A DNA stretch of 64,000 bases, from positions 124,001-188,000 of the forward strand of contig NZ_CP010537.1 in assembly GCF_000832305.1 (NCBI RefSeq). Direction: 5' to 3'. Origin of the DNA: Cupriavidus basilensis (GTDB lineage Bacteria; Pseudomonadota; Gammaproteobacteria; Burkholderiales; Burkholderiaceae). The position numbers and the translations under genes were made by a program. Below, piece by piece: positions 18,257-51,830 of this stretch. The stretch's first letter is position 1. Every line of letters starts with the position of its first letter. A model generated the notes under the pieces. The model was not told where the DNA came from. It saw only the letters and a program-made list of their open reading frames with translations, and did not search any database.

Positions 18257-18553
18257 TCATCCATCGCCACTCTCGTCCTCCGGCACATCCATCGCGGCGG
18301 CCAGCTCACTCAACACCAGCGTCTCGTGCGCCAGCACGGCCACCAGCGAAAGCAGATGGGCCTGGGTCTCTTCACCAAGGTTGCAGAAGGTGCCACCCGC
18401 CGCGTTCTCGACGGCAACCGACAACAACGCATTGAGCTGCGCGGTTTTTTCGGCGGCGAGGCTTAGCGGGCTTTCGGATGGCGCATGCGCGGTCAGGAAG
18501 GTATCGCGGCCCGTGCGTTGGGCGGTGATGTTGTAGCGCGGGTAGTTATACAT
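18257..18553 (-). CDS. 98-residue protein of unknown function, copy 1
   Basis: Begins MYNYPRYNITAQRTGRDTF. I do not recognise the family. The central half (residues 35-90) is an Ala/Leu-rich helical segment, AAEKTAQLNALLSVAVENA, then HLLSLVAVLAHETLVLSELAAAMD, resembling small helical proteins common in Pseudomonas and Burkholderia accessory regions. Its ATG is inside the stop region of the upstream 34-codon ORF (8-bp overlap), so translation should be coupled. Nearly identical to the product at 26823-27119 except for the last 8 residues. Confidence 0.75.
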   Translation of the reverse strand: MYNYPRYNITAQRTGRDTFLTAHAPSESPLSLAAEKTAQLNALLSVAVENAAGGTFCNLGEETQAHLLSLVAVLAHETLVLSELAAAMDVPEDESGDG

Positions 18554-18650
18554 CGAGCGCCCTCCGTTGGGAGGCGCGCAGGCGCTGGTGGATGACGGGG
18601 AGCTTGAGGGATGCGATTTGCCCGGAATGGGCGAGCGAAGACTGGGGCAT
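18546..18650 (-). CDS. 34-codon upstream ORF coupled to the 98-residue ORF, copy 1
   Basis: Begins MPQSSLAHSGQIASLKL and ends RRALDV. The start has a strong ribosome site AAGGAGG, 7 bp upstream. The downstream ORF starts within its last codons in another frame (GATGTATAA). Length, start, ribosome site and overlap are all kept in copy 2, where only one residue differs (Leu to Pro). Likely a regulatory leader peptide. Confidence 0.7.
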   Translation of the reverse strand: MPQSSLAHSGQIASLKLPVIHQRLRASQRRALDV

Positions 18651-18705
18651 GGGAGTGCCTCCTTCTTAAGCGATTTCGACTCCGCTCCCCGCTGCTAATC
18701 GGGGT

Positions 18706-18783
18706 GGGCGGGCGCATGGCGAGGTTAGCAGACCGGTAAGAAGGAACCAGCGAGCCCGAAGGCTCCCCCGCCAAGGCCCGCCC
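18706..18783 (-). ncRNA. C4-like antisense RNA candidate, copy 1
   Basis: On the minus strand, closing stem GGGCGGGC (18776-18783 side) with GCCCGCCC (18706-18713 side), an inner GGCGGGG/CCTCGCC stem, a GAGCC-TTCG-GGCTC hairpin, and an unpaired CTGCTAA (plus-strand 18725-18731). CTGCTAA is complementary to TTAGCAG in hairpin loops on both sides (18851-18857 and 18692-18698, plus-strand coordinates). This resembles C4 of P1/P7 and CI RNA of P4. Confidence 0.6.
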
Positions 18784-18944
18784 ATAGGAACGTGCGAAGG
18801 CGCGACGGACAAAAACCGCCTGGCGGCGGTTGTCCGCCTTCCTAAACGGGCTGCTAAACCCGGCCGCTGTGGTTGCAGCGACGAGCGGAGTATAGCGTCG
18901 CGAAATGCAGCCTAACCCAGCCGCAACAAAAAGTCACACCCGCT

Positions 18945-19232: not shown

Positions 19233-19604
19233 TTAGTGCGGTGCCTGCTGCTGCTCGATGTACTGCCGCAGGATATCCAATGGAGCCCCGCCACACGACG
19301 CCGCGAAGTACGACGGAGACCACAGCACGCCGCGACGTTTCAACCACGGATGGAAGTCCCCGAACTCCTGCCGCAGCAAACGGCTGGAAACGCCCTTGAG
19401 CGACGCGACGAGCGTGGATAGAGCCACCTTCGGTGGGTAGCTCACCAGAAGATGCACGTGGTCATGCTCGCCGTTGAACTCCACCAACTCCGCGTCGAAG
19501 TCCCGGCAGACACTTTCGAGAATTCGCCGCATCGCTTCAAGGTGCTCTTTCTTGAACATGTTGCGGCGATATCTTGCGTTAGTTTCGAATACAAAAATAC
19601 ACTT
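19233..19604 (-). CDS. tnpA: IS200/IS605 Y1 transposase TnpA (N-terminus unclear)
   Basis: HUH/Y1 single-strand transposase. The HUH motif is in NGEHDHVHLLVSYPP and the catalytic tyrosine in LDILRQYIEQQ; the WSPSYFAASCGGA block is typical. The N-terminus is odd: the usual opening (HxxxVFVTKYRRxVF) appears as CIFVFETNARYRRNMF, with no in-frame ATG close upstream before the frame runs into the tnpB antisense. The listed 5' limit is the point where similarity stops. It may use a non-ATG start or be slightly damaged. Confidence 0.7.
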   Translation of the reverse strand, partial: KCIFVFETNARYRRNMFKKEHLEAMRRILESVCRDFDAELVEFNGEHDHVHLLVSYPPKVALSTLVASLKGVSSRLLRQEFGDFHPWLKRRGVLWSPSYFAASCGGAPLDILRQYIEQQQAPH

Positions 19605-19610
19605 CGCGTC

Positions 19611-20705
19611 ATGGGAACCGTAAAGACACTGAAGCTGCGCATCAAGGACAAGCACGCGAAAGCGATGCTTGCGATGGCACGCGACGTCAATACGGTCTGG
19701 AACTTCTGCAACGAAACCCAATACAGAAGCCTCAAGCGGTACTGCAACAAGCCGAAAGTCTGGTTGTCCGGTTTCGATCTCCAGAAGCTCACCGCTGGAT
19801 TCAGCAAGTGCGAAGGCGTACACGTCGATTCGAGAACGATTCAGGAAACGTGCAAGGAATTCGCGACCCGGCTCAAGCAGTTCAAGAGACAGAGGCTGAA
19901 CTGGCGCGTAAGCGACCGGAAGTCGCCGAAATACTCGCTCGGCTGGGTTCCGTTCAAAGGCGAAGGCATTAAGTACAGGAACGGGCAATTACACTTCAAC
20001 GGGCTCAAGATCGGCCTGTGGGACTCCTACGGCCTGTCGAAGTACGAGCTTGGAGCGGGCAGATTCAATGAGGACTCGCGCGGGCGCTGGTACGTCAACA
20101 TCGCGGTCAAGGTTGAGGTCGAAGAAAAGCGCGTGCCGGATGGAACAACCGCGCTCGGGATCGACCTTGGCCTGAAGACGGCGGCGACGTACAGCGACGG
20201 CTCCGAGTTCGCCATGCCGAAGTGGTATCGGCTGTCTGAGGCGGATCTGGGAATCGCCCAGCGGGCGAACAAGAAGCGGCGCGTGAAGGCTATCCACGCG
20301 CGCATCGCAAATCAGCGCAAGGACGCCATCCACAAGGAAACGACGGCGCTGGTCAAGAAACATGCAGCAATCTTCGTAGGCAACGTGAACGCGAAAGCGA
20401 TGGCAAAGACGAGCATGGCTAAGTCCGTGCACGATGCCGCGTGGACGACGTTCAGGACACAACTCAAGTACAAGGCCATCAGGCAGTGTGTGGTGTTCGA
20501 AGAGGTCAACGAGGCGTTCTCAACCCAGACTTGCTCGTGCTGTGGCGTTATCCCGCCCAGCAGTCCGAAAGGTAGGGCTGGTCTTGGAATAAGGCAGTGG
20601 ACTTGCTGTGCGTGTGGCGCGGAACACAACCGCGATACGAACGCCGCAAGGAACATCGCCCGCTTGGGACTTCAAGCGCTTGAAGAAGGAATCTCCGGGG
20701 TTTAG
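19611..20705 (+). CDS. tnpB: TnpB RNA-guided nuclease homologue
   Basis: A 364-residue TnpB, the transposon-encoded relative of Cas12 that cuts DNA using omegaRNA from the element's right end. RuvC-I Asp185 is in GIDLGLKTAAT, a zinc finger uses Cys308/Cys311 and Cys332/Cys335, and the last acidic residue is Asp342 in HNRDTNAARN. The usual RuvC-II glutamate position reads IFVGNVNAKAM (Gly257); Glu298/299 or Glu301 in FEEVNEAFSTQT probably replaces it. ATG at 19611 was chosen because similarity begins MGTVKTLKLRI. Confidence 0.85.
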   Translation: MGTVKTLKLRIKDKHAKAMLAMARDVNTVWNFCNETQYRSLKRYCNKPKVWLSGFDLQKLTAGFSKCEGVHVDSRTIQETCKEFATRLKQFKRQRLNWRVSDRKSPKYSLGWVPFKGEGIKYRNGQLHFNGLKIGLWDSYGLSKYELGAGRFNEDSRGRWYVNIAVKVEVEEKRVPDGTTALGIDLGLKTAATYSDGSEFAMPKWYRLSEADLGIAQRANKKRRVKAIHARIANQRKDAIHKETTALVKKHAAIFVGNVNAKAMAKTSMAKSVHDAAWTTFRTQLKYKAIRQCVVFEEVNEAFSTQTCSCCGVIPPSSPKGRAGLGIRQWTCCACGAEHNRDTNAARNIARLGLQALEEGISGV

Positions 20706-26274: not shown

Positions 26275-26541
26275 ATCAAGAGCATCGCAAGCGGTGATCT
26301 CGGGCAGCTACAGCGGTGGCAGCAGCGTGAAGGCGAGCGATCCAAACCTCGGGCCGGTGCAGCCCACGCACGTTACGGCTGACGGCGGGCAGGATCGATC
26401 TGGTACTTGTAGCCGTTGGCTAGCGTAGCGGGTGTGACTTTTTGTTGCGGCTGGGTTAGGCTGCATGGCGCAACGCTATACTTCACTCGTCGCTGCAACC
26501 ACAGCGGCCGGGTTTAGCAGCCCGGATGACAGAGGCGGACA

Positions 26542-26562
26542 GCCGCCACCAGGCGGCGTTTT
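26542..26562 (+). terminator. terminator-like hairpin inside the leader
   Basis: GCCGCC-ACCA-GGCGGC followed by GTTTTTG. In copy 1 the same place reads ACCGCC-GCCA-GGCGGT, so a G-C pair is exchanged for an A-T pair and the stem is kept. It lies between the first TTAGCAG hairpin and the C4-like RNA, as an attenuator would. Confidence 0.55.
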
Positions 26563-26592
26563 TGCATCCGTCGTGCCTCTGCACGTCCTTAT

Positions 26593-26669
26593 GGGCGGGC
26601 CTAGGCGGGGGAGCCTTCGGGCTCGCCGGTTCTCTGTCCCGGTCTGCTAACCCCGCCTTGCGCCCGCCC
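26593..26669 (+). ncRNA. C4-like antisense RNA candidate, copy 2
   Basis: 77 nt closed by GGGCGGGC (26593-26600) and GCCCGCCC (26662-26669), with an inner GGCGGGG (26604-26610)/CCCCGCC (26651-26657) stem and a GAGCC-TTCG-GGCTC hairpin (26611-26624). CTGCTAA (26644-26650) is left single-stranded. It can pair with TTAGCAG in the loop of the upstream hairpin (26508-26525) or of the downstream hairpin (26671-26688). Size and plan fit C4 RNA of P1/P7 and CI RNA of P4. Confidence 0.6.
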
Positions 26670-26725
26670 ACCCCGATTAGCAGCGGGGAGCGGTGTCAAA
26701 GTACGCTGACAGAGGAGGCACTCCC

Positions 26726-26830
26726 ATGCCCCAGTCTTCGCTCGCCCATTCCGGGCAAATCGCATCCCCCAAGCTCCCCGTCATCCACCAGCGCCTGCGC
26801 GCCTCCCAACGGAGGGCGCTCGATGTATAA
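26726..26830 (+). CDS. 34-codon upstream ORF coupled to the 98-residue ORF, copy 2
   Basis: Same length, start and overlap as copy 1; GAGGAGG lies 8 bp before the ATG. The second TTAGCAG hairpin (26671-26688) ends 38 bp before this start, so pairing there could affect its translation. Confidence 0.7.
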   Translation: MPQSSLAHSGQIASPKLPVIHQRLRASQRRALDV

Positions 26831-27119
26831 CTACCCGCGCTACAACATCACTGCCCAACGCACGGGCCGCGATACCTTCCTGACCGCGCATGCGCCATCG
26901 GAAAGTCCGCTAAGCCTCGCCGCCGAAAAAACCGCGCAGCTCAATGCGTTGTTGTCAGTCGCAGTCGAGAACGCGGCGGGCGGCACCTTCTGCAACCTTG
27001 GTGAAGAGACCCAGGCCCATCTGCTTTCGCTGGTGGCCGTGCTTGCGCACGAGACGCTGGTGTTGAGCGAGCTGGCCGCCGCGATGGATGCGCCGCAGGG
27101 CGAGGGCGGCGATGGATGA
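26823..27119 (+). CDS. 98-residue protein of unknown function, copy 2
   Basis: Identical to the copy-1 product over the first 89 residues by inspection, with a different acidic/glycine tail (APQGEGGDG in place of VPEDESGDG). Start overlaps the upstream ORF stop by 8 bp. Conservation of the protein while the leader has drifted suggests selection on the protein. Function unknown. Confidence 0.75.
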   Translation: MYNYPRYNITAQRTGRDTFLTAHAPSESPLSLAAEKTAQLNALLSVAVENAAGGTFCNLGEETQAHLLSLVAVLAHETLVLSELAAAMDAPQGEGGDG

Positions 27120-27148
27120 TGCGAGCGCGCTGCCGTGCTGCCGCTGTG

Positions 27149-27239: not shown

Positions 27240-28808
27240 ATGCTGGCTATGAAACTCGATCCGGATACCTGCTACAAGGCCGTGGCTTCGCACGACCGCC
27301 GCTTCGACGGGCGCTTCTTCGTGGGCGTGTCGTCCACTGGCGTCTACTGCCGGCCGATCTGCGCGGTGCGCACGCCCAAGCGCGAGAACTGCACGTTCTA
27401 CGACAGTGCTGCCGCGGCCGAGAAGCAGGGTTTCCGGCCCTGCCTGCGCTGCCGGCCCGAGCTGGCGCCGGGACACGGGCTGGCCGACCTGTCGGGGCGC
27501 CTGGCCCAGGCCGCGGCCACGCTGATCGACGAGGGCTTCATGGTGGATGCCGGCGTGGCCGGGCTGGCGGCGCGCATCGGCATTACCGAGCGCCACCTGC
27601 GCCGGCTGTTCGATGCGCAGTTCGGCGTCTCGGTGCTGGAGTATGCGCAGACGCAGAGGTTGCTGCTGGCCAAGCGTTTGCTGACCGATACGGGGCTGAC
27701 CGTGACCGACGTGGCGCATGCCGCTGGCTTTGGCAGCGTGCGGCGCTTTAACGATGTGCTCAAGACGCGCTACGGGCTGACGCCCATGGCCATGCGCAAG
27801 CGCGCCGCCGACAATGTGGCCGACGAGCTGGTGTTCGAGCTGGGCTACCGCCCGCCGATGGCGTGGGCCGCGTTCCTGCAGTTCCTGGGCGTGCGCGCGG
27901 TGGATGGCATCGAGCAGCTTGGCGATGGCACCTACGCGCGCACGCTGGCGATCGACAGCGGCGGCCGCACGCATGTGGGCTGGCTGCGGTTGGAGCACGT
28001 CGCGCGCCGTCATGTGATCAGGGTGACGTTGTCCGGTTCGCTGGCGCACGTGATTCCGCAGGCGCTGGGCCGCGTGCGGCGGTTGTGCGACCTGGGCTGC
28101 CGGCCCGATGTGGTCGATCAGCATCTGGGCCCGCTGGCTGCCGAAGCGCCCGGCATGCGCTTGCCGGGCGCGGTGGATGGCTTCGAGATCGCCGTGCGCG
28201 CGGTGGTGGGCCAGGTGATCTCGGTGAAGCACGCGCGCACGCTGCTGGCGCGGCTGGCCGAGCGCCACGGTTTGCCGCTGGCGCAGCCCATGCCGGCGCT
28301 GCGCGTGACGTTTCCCGGCGCGGCTACGCTGGCTGGCGTGCCGCCCGAGGCCTTGCGTGAGATCGGCATCCCGCTGGGCAAGGGCCGGGCCATTCATGCC
28401 ATCGCGGCCCGCGTGGCGGCGGGCGCGCTCAAGCTGGAGCCTGACGCTGCGCCGGAAGACACCATGGCGCGCCTGCGCGAGGTGGAAGGCGTGGGCGACT
28501 GGACCGCGCAATACGTGGCCATGCGCGCGCTCGGCTGGCCGGATGCCTTTCCTGGCACCGACTATGTCTTGCGCAAGGTGCTCGGCATCGCTACCGTGCG
28601 AGGCATGAACCAGCATGTCGCGCAGTGGGCGCCGTGGCGCGCCTACGCCGCCGTCCACCTGTGGCGGCGCTACGAGGAACACAAGCCGGATAAGCCGGAT
28701 AAGCCGGACAAGTCGGACAAGTCGGACAAGTCGGACAAGTCGGACAAGTCGGTACGAGGCGACAAGACAAGGGACACAACCAGCGACACAACAAGGAACA
28801 CACCATGA
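27240..28808 (+). CDS. alkA: Ada-type regulatory domain fused to AlkA DNA-3-methyladenine glycosylase
   Basis: A 522-residue fusion. An Ada zinc domain with Cys37, Cys41, Cys68 and Cys71 senses methylphosphotriesters; an AraC-type HTH follows (about 85-185); the AlkA N-terminal domain and HhH glycosylase follow, with EVEGVGDWTAQYVAMRALG and Asp441 in FPGTDYVLRK as catalytic base. It removes alkylated bases and may regulate its own operon. The extreme C-terminus is a KPDKPDKSDK tail made by a 9-bp DNA repeat. The next gene (ogt) overlaps its stop by 4 bp. Confidence 0.93.
   Translation: MLAMKLDPDTCYKAVASHDRRFDGRFFVGVSSTGVYCRPICAVRTPKRENCTFYDSAAAAEKQGFRPCLRCRPELAPGHGLADLSGRLAQAAATLIDEGFMVDAGVAGLAARIGITERHLRRLFDAQFGVSVLEYAQTQRLLLAKRLLTDTGLTVTDVAHAAGFGSVRRFNDVLKTRYGLTPMAMRKRAADNVADELVFELGYRPPMAWAAFLQFLGVRAVDGIEQLGDGTYARTLAIDSGGRTHVGWLRLEHVARRHVIRVTLSGSLAHVIPQALGRVRRLCDLGCRPDVVDQHLGPLAAEAPGMRLPGAVDGFEIAVRAVVGQVISVKHARTLLARLAERHGLPLAQPMPALRVTFPGAATLAGVPPEALREIGIPLGKGRAIHAIAARVAAGALKLEPDAAPEDTMARLREVEGVGDWTAQYVAMRALGWPDAFPGTDYVLRKVLGIATVRGMNQHVAQWAPWRAYAAVHLWRRYEEHKPDKPDKPDKSDKSDKSDKSDKSVRGDKTRDTTSDTTRNTP
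28683..28754. repeat. 9-bp tandem repeat, 8 units, inside the alkA 3' end
   Basis: AAGCCGGAT twice, AAGCCGGAC once, AAGTCGGAC four times and a last AAGTCGGTA. It encodes the lysine/aspartate tail of the glycosylase in frame. Confidence 0.95.
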
Positions 28809-40684: not shown

Positions 40685-40719
40685 GGCTACACCAGTTGGT
40701 TGATTGCCGATGGTTAGCT

Positions 40720-40890
40720 CCCCTCTCCCACTTGTGGGAGAGGGGCCGGGGGAGAGGGCGGGCGCTCGTTGCGGCTGCGTGCTGGAACAAACCACGGGCT
40801 TCGCTTCAAGTGGCTCCTAGCTAAGCCACCCCTCTCCCCGGCCCTCTCCCCCTGAGGGGAGAGGGAGAGACAGCCGTCGTCATAACGCGC
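40720..40890. repeat. dispersed intergenic repeat, copy A
   Basis: Matches 51607-51785. Begins with a 12-bp stem CCCCTCTCCCAC/GTGGGAGAGGGG; shares CGGGCTTCGCTTCAAGTGGC, CTCCTAGCTAAGCCACCCCT and the palindrome CCCTCTCCCCCTGAGGGGAG. Confidence 0.88.
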
Positions 40891-40955
40891 GGCTTTGGCC
40901 CCTTCGGCGGCTTCGGCAAACGCCCCAACCCGGCGCGACGCTTCTCCCCGTACCT

Positions 40956-51570: not shown

Positions 51571-51606
51571 AGATTGCTGACAAATCCGGATCTACGTTGT
51601 CCTGCT

Positions 51607-51785
51607 CCTCTCTCCCGCGCGCGGGAGAGAGGTTGGGAGAGAGGGCGGGCGCTCGTCATGCCAGCGTGCTGGATAACCCCACGGGCTTCGCTTCAAGTGG
51701 CTCCTAGCTAAGCCACCCCTACCCAGGAACCTCCCCGGCCCTCTCCCCCTGAGGGGAGAGGGAGAGACAGCCGTCGTCAGGGCGC
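51607..51785. repeat. dispersed intergenic repeat, copy B
   Basis: Matches 40720-40890 in the same orientation. Opens with a perfect 26-bp palindrome CCTCTCTCCCGCG/CGCGGGAGAGAGG where copy A has a different perfect stem, so the stem is kept while bases differ. Contains a 12-bp insertion (ACCCAGGAACCT) relative to copy A. Confidence 0.88.
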
Positions 51786-51830
51786 GCGGATTTTGCCCGT
51801 TCGGCGGCTCCGGCACGGGCTTGATCCAGG

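Follow-up and report, generated by a model that had tools for sequence, protein, structure and literature searches.

A C4 antisense RNA module in Cupriavidus basilensis, related to the phage P1/P7 immunity region and followed by two overlapping small reading frames

In a stretch of 64,000 nucleotides from the genome of the soil bacterium Cupriavidus basilensis (two contigs, 8.42 Mb), called the window hereafter, we have confirmed at sequence level the presence of a C4 antisense module at positions 26508–26830. It is very probably a chromosomally domesticated relative of the immI control region of phages P1 and P7, which would act as a C4 switch along the steps proposed below. An earlier note on this DNA, made from the letters alone, had suggested a C4-like antisense switch, and this is borne out by Rfam matches, covariation, DNA homology with P7 immI and two matched target pairs.

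The C4 RNA, its targets and its leader

The Rfam C4 model (RF01695), which the earlier note had named as a check on its claim, matches 26587–26675 (+) with 66.9 bits against a gathering cut-off of 45, a score that places the RNA within the family. Covariation is present among homologues, with at least one compensatory change in 16 of the 23 predicted C4 pairs (39 sequences, the window's included), as befits the three-stem structure that characterises RF01695. The other hallmark of this family was also found: one transcript holds two target pairs, one of them at a ribosome site, and two C4 segments are complementary to these. The predicted processed form (26593–26669, +) is based on the Rfam match, the fold and covariation, and has the 77 nt annotated for c4 of phage P7. 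The 79-nt stretch 26592–26670 folds at −53.7 kcal/mol (z −4.85) with CTGCTAA left unpaired; the 77-nt folded RNA with a free CTGCTAA, described in the earlier note, thus stands.

For the pairing segments, all on the + strand, we use the target names a1, b1, a2 and b2 of P1 (PMC5320573). The a′ segment, CTGCTAA (26644–26650), is identical in phage P7 and complementary to both a1 (TTTAGCAG at 26513–26520, in the hairpin 26508–26525) and a2 (TTAGCAG, 26677–26683, in a second loop hairpin). Two loop hairpins matching CTGCTAA had been noted earlier: both targets are indeed there and the first hairpin is stable (z −3.81), but the second, folded alone, is no better than shuffles (z −0.30). What the earlier note lacks is the second pairing segment, b′, which overlaps the ribosome site via b2: the P3 loop TTCTCTGTC (26630–26638) is complementary to b1 (GACAGAG, 26528–26534) and, with one G-U pair, to b2 (GACAGAGGA, 26708–26716), which runs into the SD sequence GGAGG (26714–26718) of the first downstream reading frame, ORF1. 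In the 77-nt RNA there are exactly two 7-mers for which each flank contains a complement; upon 5000 dinucleotide shuffles of the flanks, at least two such 7-mers occurred in 5 cases and at least one in 20. Throughout the 8.4-Mb genome, the pattern TTAGCAG...GACAGAG (5–35 nt spacing, no mismatch) exists only in a1b1, in a2b2 and on the opposite strand of C4 itself, while the reversed pattern, used as a control, gave one match.

Upstream of C4, the Rfam model c4-a1b1 matches 26476–26528 (52.1 bits, cut-off 46.7) and isrK (RF01394) matches 26489–26563 (51.5 bits, cut-off 50). The first bases of the c4-a1b1 match hold a −10-like box, TATACT (26477–26482, +). We place the presumed leader promoter there because this box is conserved, a consensus scan giving no full sigma-70 site. 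Between leader and C4 there is an intrinsic terminator-like hairpin with a T-run (26542–26563, +; stem 26542–26557, then GTTTTTG; one found versus 0.4 expected from shuffles), and a hairpin with a T-run can be read at the corresponding place in the P7 sequence. With a score above the cut-off and a putative terminated end at this site, the short leader RNA that carries a1 and b1 (26489–26563, +) has the features of the isrK family.

The leader stretch 26477–26691 shows 68.4% DNA identity to the c4 region of P7 (E 5e-7); of an 801-base query, 27% aligns with a Burkholderia multivorans plasmid at 72% identity. The a code (TTTAGCAG/CTGCTAA) recurs in P7, which also has, as read by eye, a matched b code of its own. 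Because of the DNA identity, the same a code, the matched b code and the hairpin with T-run, we consider the control region homologous to that of P7, beyond a similar plan. The order of elements (a1-b1, C4, a2-b2, small ORF, overlapping second ORF) is that of P1/P7 immI (c4, icd, ant; RF01695, RF03163). Unlike the latter, where Icd and Ant are encoded, the window module carries a cargo that matches no known family, has no phage gene among ten neighbours, and belongs to a set of several differently coded copies per genome.

The coupled reading frames and the C4-less relatives

ORF1 (26726–26830, +; 34 codons) is a probable coupling leader ORF, the stop of which overlaps by 8 nt (ATGTATAA) the start of ORF2 (26823–27119, +; 98 aa). 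It is present in all 29 loci examined (a set that leaves out L041, L049 and L067), with 33–37 codons and ending 8 nt inside ORF2 each time. Its dN/dS is 1.03 (6 loci) and 0.68 (15 loci), a weak test of constraint for so short an ORF, and these values overstate neutrality since the low dS in the two groups (0.18 and 0.26, respectively) may reflect constraint on the RNA. The median dN/dS of ORF2 is 0.19 (9 loci, L070 included) and 0.14 (17 loci), and 0.36 in five C4-less loci; by this measure, ORF2 is under purifying selection, also in the copies without C4. Selection acts on ORF2 and there is little on ORF1, which therefore seems selected more for its translation than for its product; with its length and the 8-nt overlap kept, ORF1 is likely a coupling device. 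The earlier note had compared the two ORFs with icd and ant: the layout and the 8-nt overlap agree with that comparison, but ORF1 is unlikely to be an Icd-like effector because its product shows little amino-acid constraint, as far as the test on a short ORF goes.

Neither ORF has a Pfam, PHROG or NCBIfam match beyond noise, so that icd and ant, which lie downstream in a P1-type immI operon, are not recognised here by family model. The named relatives of ORF2 are from Cupriavidus, with C. basilensis among the closest. The structure model of ORF2 (mean pLDDT 86) predicts a beta-hairpin followed by a two-helix hairpin, and fold searches with this model returned generic helical matches only. UniRef and NCBI label some of the ORF2 relatives DUF3077; none of 77 ORF2-family members matches the Pfam model for DUF3077 (PF11275) at E 0.1, and homology of ORF2 with DUF3077 or DUF6124 was undetected by hhalign (probability 0.14–0.15%).

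We scanned ORF2-family loci at 34 of 64 listed places, and 26 of the 34 hold a C4 above the cut-off. Six of the eight C4-less loci keep the a1b1 leader, and the other two are weak family matches. Locus L070 in a sister genome is a probable orthologue of the window locus, because the downstream flank is common to both (the upstream flank differs) and the divergence is low (dN 0.018, dS 0.182). L070 has no C4 match, yet ORF1 and ORF2 are retained. Moreover, three further ORF2-family genes in the window's own genome are without C4, and the resident loops fit their b sites poorly. The toxin suggested in the earlier note is disfavoured by these data: L070 and other copies lost C4 and keep ORF2 under selection, which argues against a strong toxin. 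Most likely, the ORF2 protein is not strongly toxic, and it would be an adaptor or a regulator made only in certain conditions.

Copies, loop codes and genomic surroundings

A second copy of the whole module lies inverted, about 7.5 kb from the first, at 18257–18895 (−). Its c4-a1b1/isrK leader and C4 (18700–18895, −), identified by Rfam, complementarity and the code test described below, have a different b code (loop TTCCTTCTTA); its ORF1 (18546–18650, −; L037 in the ORF1 set) counts 34 codons, and its ORF2 (18257–18553, −; 98 aa) is 96% identical to that of the first copy. Across the ORF-bearing 431 nt, the two copies are 95% identical. The repeated unit extends from about 26416 to 27134 and includes promoter region, leader, C4, ORF1 and ORF2. 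The b loops differ (TTCTCTGTC versus TTCCTTCTTA), and b1 and b2 have changed along with each loop. The whole genome has five C4s, three of which are located outside the window. We also observed an orphan C4 (G000 C1:971141–971230; L005), the loop of which fits neither flank and which is immediately followed by a DUF1653 gene; an intact module of Burkholderiaceae bacterium 16 (L176) has a b loop identical to that of the orphan. Target-only modules, with the a1b1 leader kept and C4 lost, are extant at G000 C1:3991684, C2:2880611 and C1:1642136 (L039–L041), and at L049 and L070.

For the code test, we used 47 distinct modules from 88 C4s in six genomes (5/5, 10/24, 10/22, 11/17, 6/11 and 5/9); they were those that came first in retrieval or listing rather than a random draw, and 42 of them could be parsed. 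The own loop was strictly the best for the own b2 (downstream region) in 33 of the 42, for the own b1 in 27, and for the better of b1 and b2 in 36. Summed scores surpassed all of 5000 within-genome relabellings; for b2 the sum amounted to 349.9, versus 232.0 (sd 9.6, maximum 277.6) after relabelling. In the window's own genome, the own loop was best in four of five cases for b2, two of five for b1 and three of five for the better of the two; the b1 of the window module is fitted better by another resident loop (score 8.6 versus 7.3). Among named relatives, where C4 is above the cut-off in 8 of 16 family loci, the a and b segments match in the eight C4-bearing loci (C. basilensis strains, a Burkholderiaceae bacterium), this being a comparison in cis only. 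C. basilensis OR16 has the window's a code and the b core CTCTGTC in common with it.

All of 25 Cupriavidus modules have six or seven of the seven a positions paired at a1, and 13 have this at a2 as well. The 12 others have an eroded a2, and b1 outscores b2 in 10 of these 12, with up to 12 pairs; masking of the ribosome site is therefore not universal. By analogy, C4 probably acts on the leader only in such modules, for instance by termination as in P4 CI. Modules L050, L052–L056, L059, L060, L062–L064 and L066 belong to a Cupriavidus lineage with an eroded a2 and, for the most part, an eroded b2, an intact a1, and a b1 that mostly fits the loop.

Ten neighbouring ORFs were tested, and they specify an M16 peptidase, IS200-like and IS605-type transposases, a DDE transposase, a porin, EamA, an aldehyde dehydrogenase, Ada/AlkA, a methylguanine methyltransferase and LysE; no phage gene is among them. 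The six copies in the own genome have unrelated flanks. As far as tested, this agrees with the free, portable module without phage genes that the earlier note had envisaged. Thirteen Cupriavidus loci share their upstream flank, suggestive of vertical retention; their downstream flanks did not cluster. Adjoining the second copy, an IS200-like TnpA and a TnpB-type ORF overlap on opposite strands (19233–20705). A low-complexity KPDKPDKSDKSDK tail (28700–28808) closes an AlkA/Ada fusion ORF just ahead of the methyltransferase gene. Elsewhere in the window, a repeated element of some 200 nt, 81–92% identical and with a CTCTCCCC...GGGGAGAG core, occurs at 40717–40918 and 51604–51815.

The proposed switch, its alternatives and C4 cargo in other genomes

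In the switch that we propose for the window locus, a single transcript would start near 26485. Part of the transcripts would stop at the terminator (26542–26563), yielding the IsrK-like leader RNA with a1 and b1, while read-through would produce the C4 RNA, to be excised from the transcript; the C4 of P1/P7 is cut out of its transcript by RNase P. Through a′ (CTGCTAA) and b′ (TTCTCTGTC), C4 could then pair with a1/b1 as well as a2/b2. At b2, such pairing would cover the ribosome site of ORF1 and thereby block ORF1 and, by coupling, also ORF2, the overlapping start of which would require ORF1 translation. The leader RNA, with the same two targets, may be a decoy that soaks up C4 and relieves repression. 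The b loop would serve as a private code for each copy, and each copy in the genome would therefore control mainly its own gene; the product of ORF2 would be a small helical-hairpin protein, selected for and not strongly toxic.

Similar arrangements are known. The isrK-orf45-anrP region of Gifsy-1 with STnc1160 (RF01394) also combines a terminated leader RNA, a stable RNA downstream, a short coupled ORF and a gene, but there is no prophage gene among the ten neighbours in the window, and the cargo is no anti-repressor by family match. Coupling via orf45 and trans activation by the short leader RNA were shown experimentally for isrK in Gifsy-1 (PMC4825925). By analogy, STnc1160, a stable RNA downstream of IsrK with a role left unsettled by its authors, may be the counterpart of C4; in Salmonella, its constitutive expression intensified the growth arrest mediated by IsrK instead of weakening it (PMC4825925). 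A single expression unit comprises isrK and C4 in Burkholderia cenocepacia, where it is located on a genomic island (PMC4603805). The Group 1 C4-like sRNAs of Acinetobacter baumannii also have many copies per genome and variable pairing loops, and RNase P-like processing was deduced for them from RNA-seq; their authors consider that the targets may lie in incoming phages or in other transcripts of the bacteria, whereas the window's codes match in cis and the cargo follows directly (PMC5320573). The CI RNA of P4 likewise lies between its two targets (seqA/seqC) on one and the same transcript and acts there as an antisense RNA, by premature termination (PMC4825925), but the window RNA belongs to the C4 sequence family, and none of its ten neighbours is a P4-type gene.

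The homology to phage immI could also mean that the module is a decaying prophage remnant, a former immunity region still recognisable but without a present role. Degenerate and C4-less copies exist, the C4 at C1:971141 fits neither flank and sits before the DUF1653 gene, and the five C4-less loci have a higher dN/dS (median 0.36) than the other groups. We nevertheless hold this reading to be improbable: the median dN/dS of ORF2 is 0.14–0.19 in the other groups, the codes remained matched despite change, and the upstream flank common to 13 Cupriavidus loci suggests vertical retention, though the downstream flanks are unclustered. In addition, ORF2 was absent from the phage and plasmid collections in a single-query tblastn (50,697 phage records), and a pattern scan of IMG/VR gave no ORF2 relative. 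Resident C4s could, alternatively, confer superinfection immunity in trans, by silencing matching early genes of incoming phages or phage-plasmids. C4 prevents superinfection in P1/P7, a trans role was proposed for the Acinetobacter C4 RNAs (PMC5320573), and the window's a code is that of P7. However, the exact a1-b1 pattern of the window has 0 matches in IMG/VR contigs, where the corresponding P7-code pattern is found in 25 stretches, and exact target pairs occur in the own genome only in cis, so that we deem such immunity quite unlikely.

An antisense RNA that guards a small ORF resembles a type I toxin-antitoxin system, in which C4 would silence a harmful product of ORF2 or ORF1. The Icd of P1 inhibits division (PMC8198154). 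Both ORFs are kept without a C4 match in L070, the probable orthologue, the three own-genome family genes that lack C4 have b sites that the resident loops fit poorly, and ORF1 shows little amino-acid constraint; an RNA-controlled toxin is thus very unlikely. As for chance hairpins that mimic a C4 switch, a single complementary 7-mer does appear in some shuffles (20 of 5000) and the second loop hairpin is weak alone, but the Rfam score well above the gathering cut-off, the covariation and the matching codes already contradict this reading, the probability of which is negligible. We therefore retain the domesticated, cis-acting switch as the preferred reading.

C4 was found in 71 of the 198 genomes in a search of relatives and in 62 of 398 genomes drawn across the phylum (60 above the cut-off), the own genome being included in both surveys, the strict filters of which lose weak matches. 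The occurrence of the C4 family in Proteobacteria (PMC2864571) and of multi-copy C4 in Acinetobacter (PMC5320573) is already in print. Two Pseudomonas-type genomes, so labelled from the names of close DUF3077 relatives and from PrrF neighbours, have 24 and 22 C4s. Forty-two of these 46 are followed within 1 kb (49–506 bp) and on the same strand by a DUF6124/DUF3077 match; conversely, 42 of the 56 DUF6124/DUF3077 matches in the two genomes are preceded by a C4, five DUF6124 matches in that count being below the curated cut-off. A C4 is also present in 11 of 20 DUF3077-match loci, and in front of 7 of 12 DUF1484 matches in five genomes of the own genus. Other C4 cargo includes Bro-N proteins and a Rha protein (classical phage regulators); the anti-repressor or immunity gene also suggested in the earlier note would have its parallels there, behind other C4s, rather than at the window locus. 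DUF6124, DUF3077 and DUF1484 are, like ORF2, small proteins, many of them directly behind C4 in Pseudomonas-type and Cupriavidus-type genomes, but ORF2 is without detectable homology to DUF3077 or DUF6124. Single-query tblastn searches with DUF3077 gave no match in the phage collection, and those with DUF6124 next to none in either the phage or the plasmid collection. While the RNA family is known, we found no report of C4 as a regulator of DUF6124/DUF3077-type cargo families, and no paper on DUF6124, in the open-access literature searched.

Known from textbooks as a phage immunity RNA, C4 appears here in the role of a chromosomal regulator that occurs repeatedly, with loop codes that have diversified in nature and match their targets. 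The dozens of naturally occurring antisense pairs offer material on how loop-target pairing sets specificity. It is conceivable, albeit rather doubtful, that Pseudomonadota chromosomes hold arrays (5 here; 24 and 22 in the two Pseudomonas-type genomes) of insulated switches derived from phage immunity, mostly with their own b code, each guarding one small protein (DUF6124, DUF3077, DUF1484 or the Cupriavidus ORF2 family). Such an array could possibly act as a set of code-specific sensors, because any RNA with the same a-b code would titrate C4; if so, a leader decoy or the transcript of an invader would release one guarded protein. For these four families of unknown function, the modules provide a first handle: a single kind of RNA switch has many of their members as its cargo, so that conditions under which C4 is relieved should show at what point these proteins are produced. 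Weaker DUF3077 matches (L083, L084, L086, L087 and L091), with no C4 match, adjoin PrrF small RNAs in Pseudomonas-type genomes.
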